Source of the DNA: Sandaracinus sp.
GTDB lineage: Bacteria; Myxococcota_A; Polyangia; Polyangiales; Houyiibacteriaceae
Direction: 5' to 3'
NCBI GenBank assembly: GCA_002699025.1
Contig: PABA01000014.1
Span: 1 to 39,498, forward strand
DNA length: 39,498 nucleotides
Made by a program: the position numbers and the translations under genes
In this document: positions 2,642 through 39,498 of the stretch, piece by piece
Position numbering within the stretch: position 1 is the first letter of the stretch
Layout: each line of letters opens with the position of its first letter
Notes under the pieces: model-generated
Told to the model about the DNA's origin: nothing
The model's input: the letters and a program-made list of their open reading frames with translations, nothing else
The model's database searches: none

Positions 2642-3265
2642 ATGGAGACCGACCGCGCCGCGAAGCCCGTCGCCTCGAGCAGCAGCCGGCCGCCGCGAGG
2701 CCGCGACAAGCGAAGGGCGCTCGTCTCGGCGGCGCGGGACGCGCTCTACGAGCTCGGCCTGAAGAAGACGACGCTGGCGGAGGTCGCGCGGCGGGCCGAG
2801 GTGCCGCTCGGCAACGTCTACTACTACTACAAGAGCAAGGGCGCGCTGATCGGCGCCGTCATCGAGGCGCGGCGCGGGGAGCTCGAGGCGGAGCTCGAGG
2901 CATGCGCCGGGGCCGGGGCGCCGCGGGAGCAGCTCTGCGCTTTCCTGACGGCGCAAGCGCGCGGGGCGGAGACCAAGGCGCGCCTCGGCTGCCCGCTGGC
3001 GACGCTCGCGCAGGACCTCCGCAAAGGGGAGCACCCGCGCGCGGGGGAGGCGCGGGCGCTCCTCGAGCTGCAGCTCGGCTGGCTCGAGGCGCGCTTCCGG
3101 CGCGAAGACGACGAGGAGCGACGCAGCGGGCGGGCGCGCGAGCTCGCCGAGCAGCTCCTCGCCGCCGTCCACGGCGCCTTCGTGCTCGCGCATGCCTTGG
3201 ACGACCCGAGCGTGGTCCGGCGCCGCATGGGCGCGCTCGAAGGCTGGGTCGTCGCGCGCACCTGA
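2642..3265 (+). CDS. TetR/AcrR-family transcriptional regulator
   Basis: A 207-residue protein with a typical TetR N-terminal helix-turn-helix. RDKRRALVSAARDALYELG leads into TTLAEVARRAEVPLGNVYYYYKSK (about residues 41-64), and the YYYYKSK recognition-helix end is diagnostic. The ligand domain contains GCPLATLAQDL, similar to AcuR/YjdC-type regulators. ATG 2642 is preferred over the longer open frame because the upstream part is only repeat sequence. It is transcribed divergently from the crtT/crtU pair, the classic arrangement for a regulator of the neighbour, but no operator was identified. The 1.2-kb repeat array begins directly at its TGA stop. The ligand is unknown. Confidence 0.88.
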   Translation: METDRAAKPVASSSSRPPRGRDKRRALVSAARDALYELGLKKTTLAEVARRAEVPLGNVYYYYKSKGALIGAVIEARRGELEAELEACAGAGAPREQLCAFLTAQARGAETKARLGCPLATLAQDLRKGEHPRAGEARALLELQLGWLEARFRREDDEERRSGRARELAEQLLAAVHGAFVLAHALDDPSVVRRRMGALEGWVVART

Positions 3266-4469
3266 CGCTCGCTGCCCGCTCGCTGCGCTCGCTGCGCTCG
3301 CTGCGCTCGCTGCTGTCCGCCGTCCGCTTTCCGCTGTCCGTGGCGGCTGTCCAGCGTGGAGGGCGGTGGCCGCGTCCGCGGAGGGGGCGGGCAGTCGCGT
3401 GCTCGCTGCCCGCTCGCTGCGCTCGCTGCTGTCCGCCGTCCGCTTTCCGCTGTCCGTGGCGGCTGTCCAGCGTGGGAGGTGGCGGCCGCATCCGCGGAGG
3501 GGCGGGCAGTCGCGTGCTCGCTGCGCTCGCTGCCCGCTCGCTGCGCTCGCTGCCCGCTCGCTGCGCTCGCAGCTGTCCGCCGTCCGCTTTCCGCTGTCCG
3601 TGGTGGCTGTCCAGCGTGGGGGGCGGCGGCCGCGTCCGCGGAGGGGGCGGGCAGTCGTGGGCTCGCTGTGCTCGCAGCCGTCTGCCGTCCGCTTTCCGCT
3701 GTCCGTGGCGGCTGTCCAGCGTGGGGGGCGGCGGCCGCGTCCGCGGAGGGGCAGTCGCGGCGTTTGCATCGGCTGCCCCCCTGACTCCGCGAAGCGCCGC
3801 GCCGGTCGAAGAACCGCGGCGGACCGCGGACGGCGGACCGCGGAGGGCCGCGACCGAAGGGAGCGCGAGCATCGGCTGCCCCCTGACTCCGCGAAGCGGC
3901 CGCCCCCCGCGCCGGTCGAAGAACCGCGGCGGACAGCGGAAAGCGGAACGCGGACGGCCGCAACCGAAGGGAGCGCGAGCGTTGGCTGCCCCCTGACTCC
4001 GCGTACGCGGCCGCCCCCCGCGCCGGTCGAAGAACCGCGGCGGACAGCGGAGAGCGGACGGCGGACGGCCGCGACCGAAGGGAGCGCGTGCGTCGGCTGC
4101 GCCCTGACTCCGCGTACGCGGCCGCCCACCGCGCCGGTCGAAGAACCGCGGCGGACAGCGGAAAGCGGAAAGCGGACGGCCGCGACCGAAGGGAGCGAGA
4201 GCGTCGGCTGCCCCCGAACTCCGCGAAGCGGCCGCCCACCGCGCCGGTCGAAGAACCGCGGCGGACAGCGGAAAGCGGAACGCGGACGGCCGCGACCGAA
4301 GGGAGCGCGAGCGGACGGCCGCGACCGAAGGGAGCGCGAGCGTCGGCTGCCCCCGAGCTCCGCTTACGCGGCCGCCCACCGCGCCCGTCGAAGAACCGCG
4401 GCGGACAGCGGAAAGCGGAAAGCGGACGGCAGCGAGCGCAGCGAGCGGGCAGCGAGCGGGCAGCGAGCG
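3266..4469. repeat. two opposed tandem arrays filling a convergent gap
   Basis: No gene is present in these 1.2 kb. The left half (3266-3770) has four units starting at about 3316, 3432, 3576 and 3681 with a TCCGCCGTCCGCTTTCCGC core. The right half (3780-4440) has six units of about 110 bp with GGTCGAAGAACCGCGGCGG cores at about 3801, 3911, 4022, 4133, 4243 and 4383. The right half is the other orientation of the same module order: CTCCGCGTACGCGGCCGCC palindrome, GTCGAAGAACCGCGG, GCGGAAA/GCGGACA heptamers, GCGAGCG palindromes. Both ends run exactly to the stop codons of the flanking genes, and the first 22 nt after TGA are the same on both sides. Long open frames across it are artefacts. Confidence 0.9.
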
Positions 4470-6437
4470 TCAGCGAGCGCAGAGGGCGCGGAGGCGGAGG
4501 AGCTCGCCGACGCTCCAGGCCTGGAAGGGCGTGCCGCGCGGGGTGAAGGGCGGGGTGGCGTCGGCGATCTCCGAGACGTGCCCGACGCCGGCCTCGTCGA
4601 GGTGCGCCTCGAGCGGGGCGAGGAAGCGCTCGCGGGCCTCGGCCTTCGCGGCGTCCGTCGACCCGCGCACGCGCAGCCAGGCCTCCACGAAGGGGCCGAG
4701 GAGCCAGCCCCAGGCGATGCCCTGGTGGTAGCTCCCGTCGCGCTGCCGCACGCCGCCCTCGTAGCGCCCGACGAAGTCCGGGTGCGCCGGGTCGAGGCTG
4801 CGCATGCCGAGCGGGGTCCAGAGCTTCTCCTCGGCGAGGTCGACGACCCGCCGCGCCGCGTCATCGTCGAGGAGCGGCCGGGGGAGCCCGCCCACGGCGA
4901 AGAGCATGTTCGGCCGGATGGACGCGTCGCAGCGCCCGGGCTCGTGGTCGGCGTCGATGACGTCGAAGAGCCCGCCGGTCTCCGCGCAGGGGAAGCGCGC
5001 GAGGAAGCTCGTCGCCGCGAGCTCCCGGAGCGCGTGGTACTCGGTGAAGCGCGGCGCCACCACGTCGAGCGCGTTCACCCAGAGCGCCTGGATCTCGACC
5101 GGCTTGCCGATGCGCGGCGTGACGACCCAGTCGCCGACCTTCGCGTCCATCCAGGTGAGCTGCACGCCGGGCTCCCCGCAGGCGACGAGCCCGTCCTCGT
5201 CCACGCGGATGCGGTAGCGCGTGCCGCGCCGGTAGCCCTCGACGATCGCGCGCGCCGCCTGGAGCAGCACGTCGACCTCGCCCTCGCTCGCCGGCGTGCC
5301 GCTCTCGCGCCGCGCGCGCAGGTACTCGCCGACCACGACCACGTACCAGAGCGAGGCGTCGACGCTGTTGTACTCGGGTGTGTCGCCGGCGTCCGGGAAG
5401 CGGTTGGGGAGCATGCCCTCGGAGACGGCGCCGGCCCACTCGCGGAGGATGCGCCCGGCGCGGTCGAGCTGGGGGCCCACCGCCGACTGCGGGGCCAAAC
5501 AGAGGCCGCGGAGCGCGATGAAGGTGTCGCGGCCCCAGTCGCCGAACCACGGGTAGCCGGCGATGACGCTCTCGCCGCGGCCGCGCTGCACGACGTAGGC
5601 CTCGGCGGCGCGGTGGAGCGGGTCGGCGAAGGCGCGGCGGCGCGCGGCCTCCTCGCGGCGGAGCGCGGCGGGGGGCGGGGTCTCGACGCCCTCGGGGGCG
5701 AAGAGGAGCTCGGCGCCTTCCTCGTGCGCGGCGAGGTCGAAGCTCAGCTCGCCGGGGGAGAAGAGGTCCTCGAGGTGGTCGAGGCCGCGCTCGCGCTCGC
5801 GGGCGAGGAGGAAGCGGTGGTACCAGCTCGGCGCGTGCCGGTAGGCGCCGTTGGTGCGCGCGACGACGCCCGGCTCGTGGCCGGGCGAGGCCCAGGCGAT
5901 GGTGGCGGCGGTCGGGTCGAAGCGGACGGCGGCGTCGCGGGGGTGCGCGCCCATGAGCGCGTGGAAGAAGCGGCCGGCGAGGAGCGGGCGGACGAGGAGG
6001 CGGGAGGGGCCCTCGCCTTCCTCGCGGATCCAGCGGAGGACGGAGAGGGGGCGGCCGCGCGGGACGAAGAGCTCCTGGCGGAGGCGCGTGCCGTCGGGGA
6101 GGGCGAAGCGCCAGGTGGGCCAGGGCTCGGGGGCGAAGGCGGCGAGGTGGTCGACGCCGCGCGGGTGGAGGACGTCGTCGGCGTAGCGCTGCGTGCTCAG
6201 GGGGAAGCGGCCGCGGGCGGTCTCGACGAAGGCCTCGAGGCCGGCGACCAGGAGCACGCGCTCGGCGGGGGGCTTCTTCGCGACGAGGAGCAGCCCGTGG
6301 TAGCGGCGCGAGCGCGGGCCGGCGACCGTGCCGCTCGCGAACCCGCCGAGGCCGTCCGCCTCGAGCCACTCGCGCCGCTCTTCCCGCGCGGCGTCCACCC
6401 GATCCCCGTGTGCGTGCGCCCCGTCCGCGTGCTCCAT
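4470..6437 (-). CDS. glycogen debranching enzyme, amylo-alpha-1,6-glucosidase type
   Basis: A 655-residue cytoplasmic enzyme (no signal peptide) that hydrolyses alpha-1,6-linked glucose stubs of glycogen. The N-terminal domain opens with EWLEADGLGGFASGTVAG and RRYHGLLL (about residues 23-52), the hallmark of bacterial/archaeal debranching enzymes of the GDE_N type. The C-terminal (alpha/alpha)6-barrel carries GYPWFGDWGRDTFIALRGL, EYNSVDASLWYV and SYHQGIAWGWLLGPF, conserved in the amylo-1,6-glucosidase family. The length is normal. It lies 36 bp downstream of the glycosyltransferase gene on the same strand, so the two are probably co-transcribed. The ATG at 6437 has no Shine-Dalgarno but has TAGCCT seven bases before it, hinting at its own leaderless transcript. 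Its stop codon abuts the repeat array. Confidence 0.9.
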   Translation of the reverse strand: MEHADGAHAHGDRVDAAREERREWLEADGLGGFASGTVAGPRSRRYHGLLLVAKKPPAERVLLVAGLEAFVETARGRFPLSTQRYADDVLHPRGVDHLAAFAPEPWPTWRFALPDGTRLRQELFVPRGRPLSVLRWIREEGEGPSRLLVRPLLAGRFFHALMGAHPRDAAVRFDPTAATIAWASPGHEPGVVARTNGAYRHAPSWYHRFLLARERERGLDHLEDLFSPGELSFDLAAHEEGAELLFAPEGVETPPPAALRREEAARRRAFADPLHRAAEAYVVQRGRGESVIAGYPWFGDWGRDTFIALRGLCLAPQSAVGPQLDRAGRILREWAGAVSEGMLPNRFPDAGDTPEYNSVDASLWYVVVVGEYLRARRESGTPASEGEVDVLLQAARAIVEGYRRGTRYRIRVDEDGLVACGEPGVQLTWMDAKVGDWVVTPRIGKPVEIQALWVNALDVVAPRFTEYHALRELAATSFLARFPCAETGGLFDVIDADHEPGRCDASIRPNMLFAVGGLPRPLLDDDAARRVVDLAEEKLWTPLGMRSLDPAHPDFVGRYEGGVRQRDGSYHQGIAWGWLLGPFVEAWLRVRGSTDAAKAEARERFLAPLEAHLDEAGVGHVSEIADATPPFTPRGTPFQAWSVGELLRLRALCAR

Positions 6438-6473
6438 GGCGCGAGGCTACCAGGGGACGCGGGCGGCCGTTGC

Positions 6474-7448
6474 TCAGCCCAGGAACTCGGCGATCAGCGC
6501 GCGCCACTGCTCGCGCCAGCGCGCCTCGTGGAACTCGCGCAGGGCTTTCGCGCGGCTGGCGGCGCCCATCTTCTCGGCGAGGCCGTCGTCGCTCAGGAGC
6601 TGCTGGAGCGCCTCGCGGGCCTGGTGGCCGTCGTCGACGACGAAGCCGTTCACGCCGTGCTCGACGTAGCGCTCGATGCCGGGCAGGCGGAAGCTGACGA
6701 GCGGGAGGCCGGTCATCATCGCCTCGATCAGGGTGATCGTGTACTCCTGCTCGCCGTCGTGGAGGTAGACGCGGGCGCGCCGGAGCTCACGCTGCAGGTC
6801 GGCGTACTCGTAGACCTCCTGCTCCGGGTCGAGGTGGTCGACGTGGAGGAAGGGGAGCCCCTCGGTGGCCTCCGGGACCGCCCACCAGTGCCAGCCGCGG
6901 TCCTTCCAGGAGTGGATGATGGAGAGCACGCCGCCCTCGAGCGTGCTCGGCGCGTAGGCGTCCGGGTCGAGGCCGAGGGGCACGTAGGGGACGTCGACGC
7001 CGTAGGTCTCCTTCAGCCAGGCGACCGTGTTCGGGTAGAAGCTGACCACCGTGAAGTCGTCGCGCGCGAGGAGCTCGTCCCACTCGTGGCGCTCGAGCTC
7101 GGCGACCTTGGCGACGCGGTAGAGCTTCGGCAGCTCGCGGCGCTCGCGGAAGAGCTTGAACTGCCAGTTGAACATCAGCCACGCCATGTCGTAGCGCTCG
7201 GGCCAGCCGCTCCGGGCCGGGTCGTCGAGGAGGCGCGCGTAGTCGGCGGGGCCCCAGTCCAGGTGCGCCTCGTCGAAGGCCGGGAGCACGTTGTGGACGT
7301 TCGGCGGCTGGGGGCGCCAGTAGTGGAACTGGTCCCAGTGGCCGAGGAACCAGGTCGGCAGGCCGACGCGGCAGAAGTGGTACTGGACGCCCGGGTGCGT
7401 GGGGACGATCAGGAGCTGGGGGTCGTCGCCGGTGGTGGCCTCGCTCAT
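6474..7448 (-). CDS. GT4-like glycosyltransferase
   Basis: A 324-residue cytosolic GT-B fold glycosyltransferase. The C-terminal nucleotide-sugar half contains GEQEYTITLIEAMMTGLPLV (about residues 231-250) followed by PGIERYVEHGVNGFVVDD, typical of group-1 (GT4) transferases, including the E-x7-E type region. The N-terminal half is more divergent (VPTHPGVQYHFCRVGLPTWFLGHWDQ). It is upstream of and probably co-transcribed with the debranching enzyme, so a role in glycogen, trehalose or another storage or envelope glucan is inferred. The acceptor and donor cannot be read from the sequence. ATG 7448 is chosen because the upstream sequence is repeat. Confidence 0.8.
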   Translation of the reverse strand: MSEATTGDDPQLLIVPTHPGVQYHFCRVGLPTWFLGHWDQFHYWRPQPPNVHNVLPAFDEAHLDWGPADYARLLDDPARSGWPERYDMAWLMFNWQFKLFRERRELPKLYRVAKVAELERHEWDELLARDDFTVVSFYPNTVAWLKETYGVDVPYVPLGLDPDAYAPSTLEGGVLSIIHSWKDRGWHWWAVPEATEGLPFLHVDHLDPEQEVYEYADLQRELRRARVYLHDGEQEYTITLIEAMMTGLPLVSFRLPGIERYVEHGVNGFVVDDGHQAREALQQLLSDDGLAEKMGAASRAKALREFHEARWREQWRALIAEFLG

Positions 7449-7489
7449 GCGGAGGCTCCTACCACGCGGGCGCGGGGGCGCGAAGCCCG

Positions 7490-7638
7490 GCGGCGGCGAG
7501 CTCGGCGCGGCGTGACGACGTCGGTCCGGGGACCGCGACCTCGGCGTGGCGACCTGGGTGCGGTGGCGGCGACCTCGGCGCGGCGAGCTCGGCGCGGCGA
7601 CCTGAGTGCGGTGGCGGCGAGCTCGGCGCGGTGACGAC
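7490..7638. repeat. low-complexity GGCGAGCTCGGCGCGG repeat
   Basis: The gap between the small lipoprotein stop and the glycosyltransferase start is built of imperfect GGCGAGCTCGGCGCGG / GGCGACCTCGGCGCGG units and a twice-used CCTG(A/G)GTGCGGTGGCGGCGA segment. The sequence differs from the main repeat family. It ends directly at the lipoprotein stop codon. Confidence 0.6.
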
Positions 7639-8016
7639 TCAGCGCGGCGGGGCGAGGGCGTCGGGGCTCTCGCGCGTGCTCTCCCCGCCGTTCTGCCGGC
7701 CGCTCTGCCGGTCGCTCTCCTGGTCGTTCTGCCGGGCGGCCTCGCCACCGGCGGCGGAGGCGTCCGCGCGGGCGGCCGGCTCCTCCTCGCTCACCCCGAG
7801 GCGCTCGCAGGCGTCGCGGTTCGGGCAGCGGTAGAGGGCGCGCTGGCCGCAGCCCTCGACCTCGAAGACGTCGATGGCGATGGGGGTGGCGGTGATCTCC
7901 TGCGGCGGGCAGCCGAGGTCCCGGGACGCCCAGTGGCGCGCCGTCGAGCGCGCCCCGCCGCAGGCCGTCAGGCCGACCAGGGCGACGAGCCCGACGAGGG
8001 AGGCGAGCGAGCGCAC
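7639..8016 (-). CDS. small lipoprotein with Cys-rich myxobacterial domain
   Basis: With start GTG 8016 the product is 125 residues. The signal peptide is RSLASLVGLVALVGLTAC with a lipobox ending in Cys. It is followed by a short domain (WASRDLGCPPQEIT...FEVEGCGQRALYRCP) whose DLGCP and V-x-GCG-x-x-A-x-Y-x-C pattern I associate with small myxobacterial lipoproteins of unknown function. The C-terminal third is hydrophilic Q/S/E-rich and probably disordered. A TTG at 8091 would add 25 residues that make a poor signal peptide, so the GTG is preferred. It is divergent from the amidotransferase/transglutaminase fusion gene, with starts 95 bp apart. Confidence 0.65.
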   Translation of the reverse strand: MRSLASLVGLVALVGLTACGGARSTARHWASRDLGCPPQEITATPIAIDVFEVEGCGQRALYRCPNRDACERLGVSEEEPAARADASAAGGEAARQNDQESDRQSGRQNGGESTRESPDALAPPR

Positions 8017-8111: not shown

Positions 8112-10025
8112 ATGGGCGCCGTGTCGAGCCACCTCCTGGGCATGTCTTTCGACGCGGCGGCCTCGCCGTCCATCCACCTGCGCCGCTCCGACGACGACCG
8201 GGAGGCCGCCGGCTGGGGCTTCGCCTGGTACCCGATGGACGACGCGGCGGCGACCGTCCTGAAGGACCCGAAGGGCACGCACGAGACGCCGCTCGCGTGC
8301 GTGCTCCGCGACTGGGACCGCTTCCGCTCCTGCGTCTTCGTCTGCCACACGCACGGCGCCGCCAAGCGCATCACCCAGCAGGACACGCCGCCCTTCCAGC
8401 GCTCCCACGCCGGCCGCGACTTCGTCTTCGCGCACTCCGGCGACCTCGGCCGGGACCTCGGCGAGACGCTCCCGCTGACCAATCCGTCCATCGAGCCCGT
8501 CGGGCGCACCGACTCGGAGCACGCCTTCTGCTGGCTGCTCGGGCGCATGGTCGAGGTCGGCGCGCGGAGCCTGGCGGACGTCGGCTGGGCGAAGCTGCAC
8601 GGCTGGCTCGGCGAGCTGAACGAGCGCGGCACGGGGAGCTTCCTCCTCAGCGACGGGCACGACGTGGTCGCCTACTGCGATCGCGCGGGCGCGCACCCGC
8701 TCTGGCGCGTCCGCCGGACGCCGCCGCACCGGCGCATGGTGCTCAAGAGCGAGAAGATCGTCCTCGACCTCGACAACCCGCACGACGTGAACCGGGAGAT
8801 GGCGATCGTCTCGGGCACGCGGCTGAGCGAGGTGGAGAGCTGGAAGCGCATGGCGCCGGGCGCGATGGTGGCGATGCGGCGCGGCGTCTTCATCTGGTCG
8901 AGCGTCGAGGACGAGGACGTGCGGGCGGCCCCGGAGGCGGCGGCGGAGGCGGCGCCGGCCCTCGGCATGCTCTGGACCGAGACCAGCGTCGGGAGCGTGC
9001 CTGCGCCGACGGCCGAGGGAGCGCGGGGCGAGGCGCGGCAGGCGACCGAGGCGAAGCGGGAGCAGTCGCGCTTCCGGGCGGCGCCGACGCCGCGGGCGAG
9101 GAGCACGCGGGACGAGGCGGCCGAGGTGCGGCGTGAGGGGCGCGTGCTCACCGTCGACCACGAGACCATCTACCGCTACGAGGAGCCCGTCGAGCTCTCG
9201 GCGCACCTCTATCGGCTGCACCCGGTGCACGACCTGCGGCAGGACGTGCTGGACTACCAGCTCGAGATCAGCCCGCCGGGGGCGGCGCGGCGGGCCGAGG
9301 ACGTGTTCGGCAACGAGGTCCTGAGCTTCAAGATCGAGCGGCCCTATTCGGAGCTCTGGGTGCGGGCGCGCTCGCGGGTGCGCGTGCGGCCGCCGGATCC
9401 CCTGGCGCCGCTGAAGCGGGCGACGATCCCGCTCGTGTGGATGCCCTGGCAGCGGCAGATGATGACGCCCTACCTCTTGCCGCCCGAGCTGCCGGAGACG
9501 CAGCTCCACGCGCTGAGCGAGTACGCGATGGGCTTCGTGGAGCGGAACGACTTCGACCTCATCGAGACGCTGAAGGACCTGAACCTGAGCATCTACCGGG
9601 ACTACCAGTACCGGCCCGGGTCGACGCTGCTCGAGACCTCGCCCTTCACCGTCTTCGTGCGGCGCGAGGGCGTCTGCCAGGACTTCGCGAACCTCTTCAT
9701 CTGCCTGTGCCGCCTGCTCGGCGTGCCGGCGCGCTACCGGGTCGGCTACATCTTCACGGGGGCCGACTACGACAACCAGATCCAGTCCGAGGCGAGCCAC
9801 GCCTGGGCGGAGGTCTACCTGCCGCGGATCGGCTGGCGGGGCTTCGACCCGACGAACGGCGTGATGGCGAACCTGGACCACGTGCGCGTGGCGGCGGGGC
9901 GGAACTACCGGGACGCGACGCCGACGAGCGGGACGCTCTTCCGGGGCGGCAAGGGCGAGACGCTCGAGGCGAAGGTGAAGGTGGAGGTCGAGGAGGAGGC
10001 GCCGAAGGACGGCCGCGTGCGCTGA
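8112..10025 (+). CDS. fusion: class II glutamine amidotransferase-like domain + transglutaminase
   Basis: A 637-residue two-domain protein without a signal peptide. Residues 1-265 resemble YafJ/GATase type 2 proteins: SHLLGMS, GWGFAWY, a VFAHSGDL segment and TDSEHAFCWLL. The usual N-terminal catalytic Cys is replaced by Ser (S6, or S3 if the GTG at 8121 is used), and the usual H-N-G is H-S-G (108-110), so glutaminase activity is doubtful. After an A/E/R-rich linker (266-345) comes a transglutaminase N-terminal domain (VDHETIYRYEEPVELSAHLY). The transglutaminase core that follows has an intact Cys522 (EGVCQDFA), His563 (SHAWAEVY) and Asp579 (GFDPTNG). This core suits a cysteine protease or amide-forming enzyme; the target is unknown. 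No Shine-Dalgarno is evident at either start. Confidence 0.85.
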   Translation: MGAVSSHLLGMSFDAAASPSIHLRRSDDDREAAGWGFAWYPMDDAAATVLKDPKGTHETPLACVLRDWDRFRSCVFVCHTHGAAKRITQQDTPPFQRSHAGRDFVFAHSGDLGRDLGETLPLTNPSIEPVGRTDSEHAFCWLLGRMVEVGARSLADVGWAKLHGWLGELNERGTGSFLLSDGHDVVAYCDRAGAHPLWRVRRTPPHRRMVLKSEKIVLDLDNPHDVNREMAIVSGTRLSEVESWKRMAPGAMVAMRRGVFIWSSVEDEDVRAAPEAAAEAAPALGMLWTETSVGSVPAPTAEGARGEARQATEAKREQSRFRAAPTPRARSTRDEAAEVRREGRVLTVDHETIYRYEEPVELSAHLYRLHPVHDLRQDVLDYQLEISPPGAARRAEDVFGNEVLSFKIERPYSELWVRARSRVRVRPPDPLAPLKRATIPLVWMPWQRQMMTPYLLPPELPETQLHALSEYAMGFVERNDFDLIETLKDLNLSIYRDYQYRPGSTLLETSPFTVFVRREGVCQDFANLFICLCRLLGVPARYRVGYIFTGADYDNQIQSEASHAWAEVYLPRIGWRGFDPTNGVMANLDHVRVAAGRNYRDATPTSGTLFRGGKGETLEAKVKVEVEEEAPKDGRVR

Positions 10026-10367: not shown

Positions 10368-11564
10368 ATGCTCTCTCGCGCGCTGCCGTCCCTCTGCGCC
10401 CTCGCCCTCTCGGGCTGCTTCTACAACTCCGCCTGGCACCAGCAGGCGGTCTCCGAGCGCCGCGTCGCCGAGAGCGCCACCCCCGAGCGCGTCGAGGTCG
10501 CCACCCGCGCCGAGCGCCGCCGCCGCCCCCTGCGCCTCCGCGCCTACATCAGCCCCCGCTACCGCGGCGAGGTGAGCGGCGCCATGGCGCACGTCGAGGA
10601 CCTCGTCGATCGCGCCTCGGAGCTCACCGAGGAGGCCCTCGGCGCCGGGCTCGTCGTCGCCGAGGTCGTGCGCTGGGAGCTCGACGCGGAGGAGGAGATC
10701 GGCGCGTCCCTCGACCGGCTCCAGGCCCTCGACCCGGCGGAGGACGTCGACCTCGTGGTGGGCTTCGTCGGCTCCCTCGCCATGGTCGAGACGAGCATCG
10801 AGCAGCTCGGCCGGGCGCAGCTCCTCGGCAGGCACATGGTCATGCGCGCGCCGAACGACGCGGTGGAGGGGCGCGCCATCGAGCGGAGCTTCTCGCGCCT
10901 GAGCCGCGAGGAGAAGCTCCGGCTCCGGCGCCGGCGCAAGGACCACCGCGAGCTGGTGGTCTTCCTCCACGAGCTCGGGCACACGCTCGGAGCGATCCAC
11001 GTGCGCGATCCGGGCGCGCTCATGCACGCGCGCTACTCGGAGGACGTGGACACCTTCTCTTCGCCCACGCTGGCGCTGATCCGCGCGACCCTCGAGGAGC
11101 GGGTCGCGCCGCCGGAGGAGCGCGACCCGCAGCGCCTCGCCGAGTCGCTCCGCGCCGTGCTCGAGACGCAGGAGATCGCCTTCCACCCGTCGGACCACGC
11201 GCAGATGCTCGAGGGGCTCGAGGGCTGGGTGGCGGCGATGGCGCAGGCGTCCGCGGCCGAGGCGTCCCGGGCGGCCGAGGCGCCGGCGGCCGCCTCCACC
11301 GCGGCGGAGCCGCCGCCCGCGTCCGCCCTCGCCGGGCTCGACGAGGAGGAGGCGCGGCGCTTCCGGGCGGCGAAGGCGCTCGCGGACGGCGGGGACGTGC
11401 GTGGCGCCTGGGACGCGCTCGCGCCCCTCGTCGAGGCGCGGACCGATCACTACGCGGTCCAGGAGCTCGCCTGCGAGCTGACCATGAGCGGGCTCCGCGC
11501 CCACCCGGCGCGCGAGGCGTGCCAGCGCATGGTCGAGCTCGCCACGCAGCCTTCGGGCTCGTGA
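10368..11564 (+). CDS. lipoprotein with metzincin-like HEXXHXXGXXH zinc site
   Basis: A 398-residue predicted lipoprotein with signal MLSRALPSLCALALSGC and mature Cys17. The zinc motif HELGHTLGAIH (201-211) has three His ligands and a catalytic Glu202. It is followed by a Met-turn-like ALMHA (Met219), as in metzincin metalloproteases (archaemetzincin/M10-like). The C-terminal part after about 300 is A/E-rich, then helical and TPR-like (AKALADGGDVRGAWDALAPL). It probably acts on envelope-exposed or external protein; the substrate is unknown. The upstream 32-bp array separates it from the transglutaminase fusion. The next gene starts 120 bp after its stop and may be co-transcribed. Confidence 0.8.
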   Translation: MLSRALPSLCALALSGCFYNSAWHQQAVSERRVAESATPERVEVATRAERRRRPLRLRAYISPRYRGEVSGAMAHVEDLVDRASELTEEALGAGLVVAEVVRWELDAEEEIGASLDRLQALDPAEDVDLVVGFVGSLAMVETSIEQLGRAQLLGRHMVMRAPNDAVEGRAIERSFSRLSREEKLRLRRRRKDHRELVVFLHELGHTLGAIHVRDPGALMHARYSEDVDTFSSPTLALIRATLEERVAPPEERDPQRLAESLRAVLETQEIAFHPSDHAQMLEGLEGWVAAMAQASAAEASRAAEAPAAASTAAEPPPASALAGLDEEEARRFRAAKALADGGDVRGAWDALAPLVEARTDHYAVQELACELTMSGLRAHPAREACQRMVELATQPSGS

Positions 11565-29524: not shown

Positions 29525-30125
29525 GCTCCTTGCGCTCGCGCTGCGCGCTCGCGGCCGTCCGCTGTCCGCTGTCCGCTTTCCGCCGCGGCTGTTCGGCGGG
29601 AGGCGGGGCGGTGCCGCGTACGCGGAGGGAGGGGGCGGACGTGCTCGCTTGCGCTCGCGCTGCGCGCTCGCGGCTGTCCGCTTTCCGCTTTCCGCTTTCC
29701 GTCGCGGCTGTTCGGCTGGAGGCGGGGCGGTGCCGCGTGCGCGGAGGGAGGGGGCGGACGTGCTCGCGCTCGCGCTCGCGCTGCGCGCTCGCGGCTTTCC
29801 GCTTTCCGCTGTCCGCTTTCCGTCGCGGCTGTTCGGCTGGAGGCGGGGCGGTGCCGCGTACGCGGAGGGAGGGGCGGACGTGCTCGCGCTCGCGCTCGCG
29901 CTGGGCGCTCGCGGCCGTCCGCTTTCCGCTGTCCGCTTTCCGCCGCGGCTGTTCGGCTGGAGGCGGGGCGGTGCCGCGTACGCGGAGGGAGGGGGCGGAC
30001 GTGCTCGCGCTCGCGCTGCGCGCTCGCGGCTTTCCGCTTTCCGCTTTCCGCTTTCCGTCGCGGCTGTTCGGCTGGAGGCGGGGCGGTGCCGCGTACGCGG
30101 AGGGAGGGGGCAGGCGTGTCCCTGC
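29525..30125. repeat. second large array of the modular intergenic repeat (about 118-bp units)
   Basis: Five units of about 110-120 bp occupy the gap between the kinase start and the hydrolase stop. Each has TCCGCTT/TCCGCTG heptamers, a (C/T)CGCGGCTGTTCGGCTGGAGG segment, GGGGCGGTGCCGC, CGCGTACGCGG (one copy CGCGTGCGCGG), AGGGAGGGGGCGGACGTG, and GCTCGCGCTCGCGCTGCGC. A degenerate last copy fades at about 30160. The module order equals that of the 3266-4469 array. Around 30176-30196 is a GTGCACGTGCACGTGCACGT run. No coding frame is credible in 29479-30252. Confidence 0.88.
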
Positions 30126-39339: not shown

Positions 39340-39397
39340 AGGGCGCGCGCCGACCGGGCGCCTCGCCGCGGCCTCGAGCTCGTCGGTGCGCCCGGGC

Positions 39398-39498
39398 GTC
39401 GCACCCTGGCGTCGCACCCGGCCGTCGCACCCGGCCGTCGCACCCGGCCGTCGCACCCGGCCGTCGCACCCGGCCGTCGCACCCGGCCGTCGCACCCG
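39398..39498. repeat. 13-bp tandem repeat running off the window
   Basis: GTCGCACCCGGCC repeats with an exact 13-bp period at 39398, 39411, 39424, 39437, 39450, 39463, 39476 and 39489. The first two copies are slightly diverged. It follows the Gly-rich lipoprotein stop by about 60 bp and continues beyond the right edge. Confidence 0.92.

Follow-up and report, generated by a model that had tools for sequence, protein, structure and literature searches.

Transglutaminase-like proteins joined to an amidotransferase-like domain without its catalytic cysteine accompany an ATP-grasp/Alpha-E/DUF2126 gene cluster

Architecture and start of the fused gene

The window analyzed here is a 39,498-nucleotide stretch of a Sandaracinus sp. 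genome (contig PABA01000014.1), and the gene under study lies on its plus strand at 8112-10025, where a check of the open reading frame and its translation confirmed a frame that is open from ATG 8112 for 637 amino acids. It encodes an amidotransferase-like domain followed by a transglutaminase-like half, with the following features:

8112-10025, plus strand: complete frame encoding the fused protein (from ATG 8112, 637 amino acids)
8121-8123, plus strand: GTG, the likelier start codon (start codon in the same column in relatives L007, L008, L009 and L027)
8127-8930, plus strand: YafJ-like class II amidotransferase domain (GATase_4), residues 6-273, predicted pseudoenzyme (Pfam E-value 6e-66; Z-score 29.6 to 1te5; Cys in 0/87 fused homologues)
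8127-8129, plus strand: codon of Ser6, which occupies the catalytic Cys position (sequence and structural alignment)
8433-8441, plus strand: H108-S109-G110, replacing His-Asn-Gly (alignment)
8931-9146, plus strand: linker, mostly with pLDDT below 50 (model residues 269-337, which are window residues 272-340)
9147-9380, plus strand: Bact_transglu_N domain, residues 346-423 (Pfam E-value 4e-22)
9561-9851, plus strand: Transglut_core domain, residues 484-580 (Pfam E-value 8e-20; Z-score 27.1 to 3isr)
9675-9677, plus strand: Cys522 codon, catalytic triad (invariant, 87/87)
9798-9800, plus strand: His563 codon, catalytic triad (invariant, 87/87)
9846-9848, plus strand: Asp579 codon, catalytic triad (invariant, 87/87)

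The GATase_4 match and the two transglutaminase Pfam matches place this domain assignment far above chance; an NCBIfam scan of the window protein returned zero families above the cut-off. The protein was modeled with AlphaFold2 from an alignment of 57 sequences (the window protein and 56 relatives, omitting the loci from the genome search as well as L021, L059, L071 and L080), and the model has a mean pLDDT of 82.5 with a stretch below 50 between the domains. Among solved structures, those closest in sequence are 3isr, a putative cysteine protease of Cytophaga hutchinsonii with a transglutaminase-like fold, and 1te5, a YafJ-like protein of Pseudomonas aeruginosa. In structural alignments the N-terminal half of the model matches 1te5 over 245 residues (Z-score 29.6), and model residues 337-629 match 3isr over 268 residues (Z-score 27.1; sequence match 4e-15); the GlmS and PurF domains match the N-terminal model with Z-scores of about 20. 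The window protein thus contains a class II-type Ntn fold (Pfam PF13230 and the structure matches), as a prior sequence-only reading of this DNA had claimed, and an unrelated fold is not what the structures indicate. It shares with 1te5 the fold, the GATase_4 family and the GWG, HxG and TDSE motifs; its C-terminal half shares the fold of 3isr, but unlike that protein it carries an additional amidotransferase-like domain in front. Because the linker is predicted at low confidence, the model does not indicate contact between the two active sites.

The start codon bears on which residue could form the mature N-terminus. The four relatives that are 67-69% identical to the window protein have a start codon in the column of GTG 8121 (GTG in L007, L008 and L009, ATG in L027), whereas ATG 8112 is without a counterpart in them, and GTG 8121 is therefore the likelier start; the sequence-only reading had supposed it under one of its two options. 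Initiation at this codon and removal of the methionine would leave Ser5 at the mature end, with Ser6, the equivalent of the catalytic cysteine, in second place. Residue 5 is Ser or Thr throughout the clade of the window protein.

The catalytic cysteine is absent from the fused homologues

Homologues came from two sources: scanning a single genome of each species yielded 80 loci, and of the 282 phylum genomes searched at an E-value of 1e-20, 51 match some part of the window protein. After a duplicate of the window protein (L001) and rows identical to another over a stretch were dropped, the residue alignment comprised 95 rows, 89 fused and 6 standalone; the count at residue 6 left out L059 and L071, whose N-termini are unreadable, and thus covers 87 fused rows. 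Column 6 of these 87 homologues contains Ser (47), Thr (14), Pro (13), Gly (7), Ala (2), and Asn, His, Arg and Ile (1 each), and in no case Cys, whereas Cys is present in all four readable rows of the standalone YafJ relatives (two of the six rows are unreadable at this position). A hydroxyl residue (Ser or Thr) therefore stands at the place of the nucleophile in 61/87 homologues, and the other 26 have one of the seven non-hydroxyl residues listed. The window protein itself has Ser6, as the sequence-only reading had noticed. In the structural alignments this serine (model residue 3) is the first aligned pair, opposite residue 1 of GlmS and of E. coli PurF, and it pairs with residue 2 of EgtC; these residues we take to be the catalytic cysteines, with which the entry title 'EgtC_C2A' is consistent. 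Lack of the nucleophilic cysteine thus characterises the fused family throughout, and not the window protein alone. The serine is not generally conserved in its place (47/87).

The departures extend to other active site residues. The Asn-Gly pair of class II amidotransferases forms part of the oxyanion hole. The window protein has H-S-G instead of H-N-G, a replacement that had been read correctly from the sequence, and this asparagine is kept in 49/89 fused rows and lost in 40/89. The histidine of the NTHP motif (column 93) is present in 25/89 fused rows, and the window protein is the sole one of the 89 with a proline there. Column 81 holds Arg in the standalone YafJ proteins and His in the window protein and its clade. 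The aspartate of the TDSE motif, Asp134, which together with the column-81 arginine we presume to hold the glutamine, is present in the window protein and retained in 83/89 fused rows. In 14/87 rows Arg81, His93, Asn109 and Asp134 are all retained beside Thr (8 rows) or Ser (6 rows) at position 6. The transglutaminase half presents the opposite picture, as Cys522, His563 and Asp579, the triad and numbering given by the sequence-only reading, are present in each of the 87 rows that cover them.

A sequencing error or a peculiarity of the window was considered as the source of Ser6 and ruled out, since all five members of its clade have Ser at this position. The genome also encodes proteins of class II amidotransferase type that keep an N-terminal Met-Cys (L002, L004 and L005), and the Cys-less protein is therefore not its sole copy of the fold.

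The fusion is widespread and its N-terminal domain is under purifying selection

All three Pfam domains are present in each of the 57 proteins scanned (the window protein and its relatives, from many phyla), and the amidotransferase-like/transglutaminase fusion, whose breadth the sequence-only reading had left to be established, is widespread. A tree of the GATase domain was built by a quick method from 92 rows, leaving out the incomplete L059, L071 and L021; 33 of its 89 inner branches are starred. All 86 fused rows group together in a single starred clade opposite the 6 standalone rows; this outgroup is small, and the tree has four long rows. Rows with Pro at residue 6 make up a clade of 12, with the long row L074 in addition, and those with Gly a clade of 7; residue 6 must have changed at least 15 times on this tree.

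Nonsynonymous divergence (dN) in the GATase domain was lower than synonymous divergence (dS) in all 12 fused pairs tried, including those with Pro (dN/dS values 0.05/1.11 and 0.08/0.32), Gly (0.10/0.69 and 0.08/0.35) and Ala (0.10/0.68) at residue 6. The domain is thus constrained in these pairs although it has presumably lost its chemistry: with Pro, Gly or Ala at residue 6 these lineages are incapable of acting through an N-terminal nucleophile, and selection on the domain is nonetheless purifying. The comparison of the window protein with L007 gave 0.24/0.58, a ratio of about 0.4 that is the highest among the pairs tried, and dN was below dS in both domains. By residue conservation the GATase domain is under weaker constraint than the transglutaminase half, with a mean identity to the window protein of 41% as compared to 61%, and with 6/257 invariant columns as compared to 46/281. 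The six invariant columns of the GATase domain (P19, G36, G110, G131, E136 and P204) look structural.

The fused gene family is associated with the ATP-grasp/Alpha-E/DUF2126 cluster

Passages of PMC5666114 and PMC6376114 name Iyer et al. 2009 as the source of an ATP-grasp/Alpha-E/transglutaminase/Anbu gene cluster with a possible role in peptide synthesis or tagging; the authors of PMC6376114 (2017) knew of no experimental confirmation of the published hypotheses on this role. Bact_transglu_N, Alpha-E and CP_ATPgrasp are also said to keep company in a passage of PMC3597751. In our data at least one of DUF2126, CP-ATPgrasp and Alpha-E is encoded in the fetched stretch at 58/70 fused loci of the per-species scan, and among the 40 loci of at least 15 kb, 32 have at least one partner gene and 20 have all three. 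At the Kiloniella locus (L055) the fused gene adjoins a divergent transglutaminase-DUF2126 gene and lies upstream of the CP-ATPgrasp and Alpha-E genes, and Pfam confirms all four cluster genes.

The same association is seen across genomes. Among the 282 genomes of the phylum, Alpha-E is present in 31/32 with the fusion and 16/250 without it (Fisher p 2e-28, ancestry ignored), and DUF2126 in 31/32 and 8/250, respectively (p 1e-32, ancestry again ignored). The 32 fused genomes were picked by hand from the table of matches at E 1e-20 as those with both halves in neighbouring places; less certain among them are G172, in which the halves lie on two contigs, and G067, which has the N-terminal half only, at a contig end. 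At the level of the family the fused gene belongs to the known, uncharacterised CP-ATPgrasp/Alpha-E/transglutaminase-DUF2126 cluster, a membership that is new here. A description of the fusion or of its missing nucleophile was not found in searches of open-access papers, and Iyer et al. 2009 may describe the fusion.

The window is an exception in its gene order. The partner genes are absent from it and from the fetched stretches of the near relatives L007, L008 and L027, and two of the three are present at the locus of the near relative L009. In the window's own genome they lie on another contig, C38, where Alpha-E (C38:42447-43391) and CP-ATPgrasp (C38:43499-44617), the genome's only matches to each, accompany a transglutaminase-DUF2126 gene. 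The first DUF2126-like stretch on this contig is followed by another, divergent one at about 12427-14427 of L129 (G000:C38:36000-54000), and second DUF2126-like matches also occur in several related genomes.

Anbu was sought with a single query taken from one genome, presumably Anbu as judged by its sequence and place, so that distant Anbu may escape the search. This query finds Anbu-like genes in 6 of the 282 genomes, and 4 of these 6 have the fusion; on this one-query search, the idea that the fusion stands in for Anbu was rejected. The window's genome gave zero matches to the query at 1e-8. Pfam Proteasome was set aside as a probe because frames as long as HslV and proteasome subunits matched it too.

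Function of the N-terminal domain

The sequence-only reading had left two options for the N-terminal domain, a serine that acts as nucleophile after processing or a binding module from which the transglutaminase would receive glutamine or gamma-glutamyl groups. The binding module is favoured by the family-wide residue pattern: Cys is found in none of the 87 homologues, 26 have a residue that is no nucleophile, the HNG asparagine is lost in 40/89, and the domain remains under purifying selection. A maintained pseudo-amidotransferase is the best reading, and we infer that the domain would be without glutaminase activity. What goes beyond the sequence-only reading is that the cysteine is lost throughout the family, that the gene is linked to the ATP-grasp/Alpha-E/DUF2126 cluster, and that the window protein departs at Arg81 and the NTHP histidine as well.

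We propose, as the probable account, that a working transglutaminase-like domain is joined to a non-catalytic module of YafJ-like descent within a peptide-making or peptide-modifying system that also comprises Alpha-E, the circularly permuted ATP-grasp ligase and the transglutaminase-DUF2126 amidoligase. With its Cys-His-Asp triad, the C-terminal domain would be the working enzyme and may hydrolyze or transfer an amide or gamma-glutamyl bond in something the ligases produce. A YafJ-like class II amidotransferase ancestor would have lost its catalytic cysteine before the family spread, and the Cys-less domain would then have been retained so that the transglutaminase tethered to it has its substrate, or a partner protein, held or docked nearby. 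Of this account, the domain make-up, the absence of Cys across the family, the intact triad, the purifying selection and the linkage and co-occurrence with the cluster are observed, and the reaction and the ligand are proposed. More tentatively, and with less than even confidence, the domain could be a receptor, a class II glutaminase pocket that abandoned catalysis before the family reached its many bacterial phyla, which recognizes a glutamine or gamma-glutamyl (amide) tag made by the ATP-grasp and DUF2126 ligases and tethers it to the transglutaminase-like enzyme that removes or transfers it. The glutamine or gamma-glutamyl reading draws on the retention of Asp134 and the ancestry of the fold, and by analogy the entry for EgtC C2A with its natural substrate, as titled, suggests that such a pocket may hold a ligand without the cysteine; loss of Arg81 in the window clade weakens the glutamine reading there. 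Further observations argue against parts of this account: Ser or Thr in 61/87 homologues, 14 of which also keep Arg81, His93, Asn109 and Asp134, would fit a Ser/Thr hydrolase, the gene lies apart from the cluster in the window, L007, L008 and L027, and the linker between the domains is predicted at low confidence, with contact between active sites not indicated.

We consider it improbable that the domain is instead an active Ntn hydrolase with Ser or Thr in place of Cys, in which removal of the methionine exposes the nucleophile and the fused protein comprises two sequential enzymes. Such an enzyme would account for the hydroxyl residues, for the 14 rows with an otherwise intact site, and for the start codons: in 26/56 proteins residue 6 directly follows the nearest upstream start codon, and in the window clade the mature end left by a start at GTG 8121 is itself Ser or Thr. 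One residue intervenes in 15/56 (including L007, L009 and L027), four to seven in 14/56 (5 to 8 codons from the start), and no upstream start codon was found within reach in L022 (1/56). A hydrolase is difficult to reconcile with the 26/87 homologues that have non-nucleophilic residues in a domain still under purifying selection, and with a group of Ser-bearing relatives whose N-terminus is extended by 5-8 residues. The window protein fits it poorly, because Asn109, Arg81 and His93 are replaced and Ser6 would be second after the likely start. An N-terminal serine nucleophile is thus disfavoured for the family as well as for the window protein, where Ser5 precedes Ser6 even with the GTG start that the sequence-only reading had attached to this option. 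It is less improbable in the Ser or Thr lineages in which residue 6 comes immediately after the start codon, and in the 14 rows with an otherwise intact site.

Alternatively, the domain could be a structural piece with no role in ligand binding, retained for folding, dimerisation or docking to the Alpha-E or ATP-grasp protein. This explanation, which we rate unlikely, agrees with the variable active site columns beside the six invariant, structural-looking ones and with the far greater conservation of the transglutaminase half, but a pure scaffold would have no need of Asp134, the presumed glutamine holder that is kept in 83/89 rows. That the window protein is merely a drifting relic, apart from its cluster, is highly improbable: although the window lacks partner genes, the protein's vestigial site departs further than that of most relatives and its GATase ratio against L007 is the top of the pairs tried, the 637-codon frame is open, the triad is intact, dN is below dS in both domains, and partner genes are present elsewhere in the same genome.

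The maintained pseudo-amidotransferase has a precedent in beta-lactam synthetase, one of the fold matches (1mb9 and 1jgt, Z-scores of about 12), whose class II amidotransferase domain is vestigial and has lost its cysteine; the synthetase domain of that enzyme is unrelated to transglutaminases. The YafJ-like amidotransferases differ from the fused proteins, which have Cys in 0/87 members and are joined to a transglutaminase domain, and the window protein is in addition without the Arg, the NTHP His and the HNG Asn. In line with the cluster of Iyer et al. 2009, as it is outlined in the passages cited above, the fused gene of most relatives adjoins CP-ATPgrasp, Alpha-E and transglutaminase-DUF2126 genes; unlike it, the transglutaminase carries a pseudo-amidotransferase domain, just 4/32 fused genomes have an Anbu-like gene, and the genome of the window keeps its fused gene apart from the partners. 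As the cluster is widespread, a selected but probably dead domain of glutamine-site descent, joined to the cluster's transglutaminase in many phyla, offers a clue to its chemistry, pointing to a ligand of the glutamine or gamma-glutamyl type in a small, testable module. The name glutamine amidotransferase is unsuited to the fused proteins in annotation.

Other features of the window

Upstream of the fused gene, on the opposite strand, 4470-7748 encodes a glycogen debranching enzyme (GDE_N/GDE_C) and a group 1 glycosyltransferase, genes with no evident link to it. Downstream, the protein encoded at 10368-11564 on the plus strand has a weak metallopeptidase match (Reprolysin_5 1e-6, Matrixin 1e-5). 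Repeat arrays with units of about 105-260 bp occupy 3251-4447 (TRF scores up to 878) and are crossed on both strands by long open reading frames that are probably not genes. A second array, at 29525-30118, consists of 121/241-bp units. Short motifs of its consensus recur in the array at 3251-4447, and the two are possibly one dispersed repeat family. A 13-bp tandem repeat at 39391-39498 (8 copies, 96% matches) reaches the end of the window.
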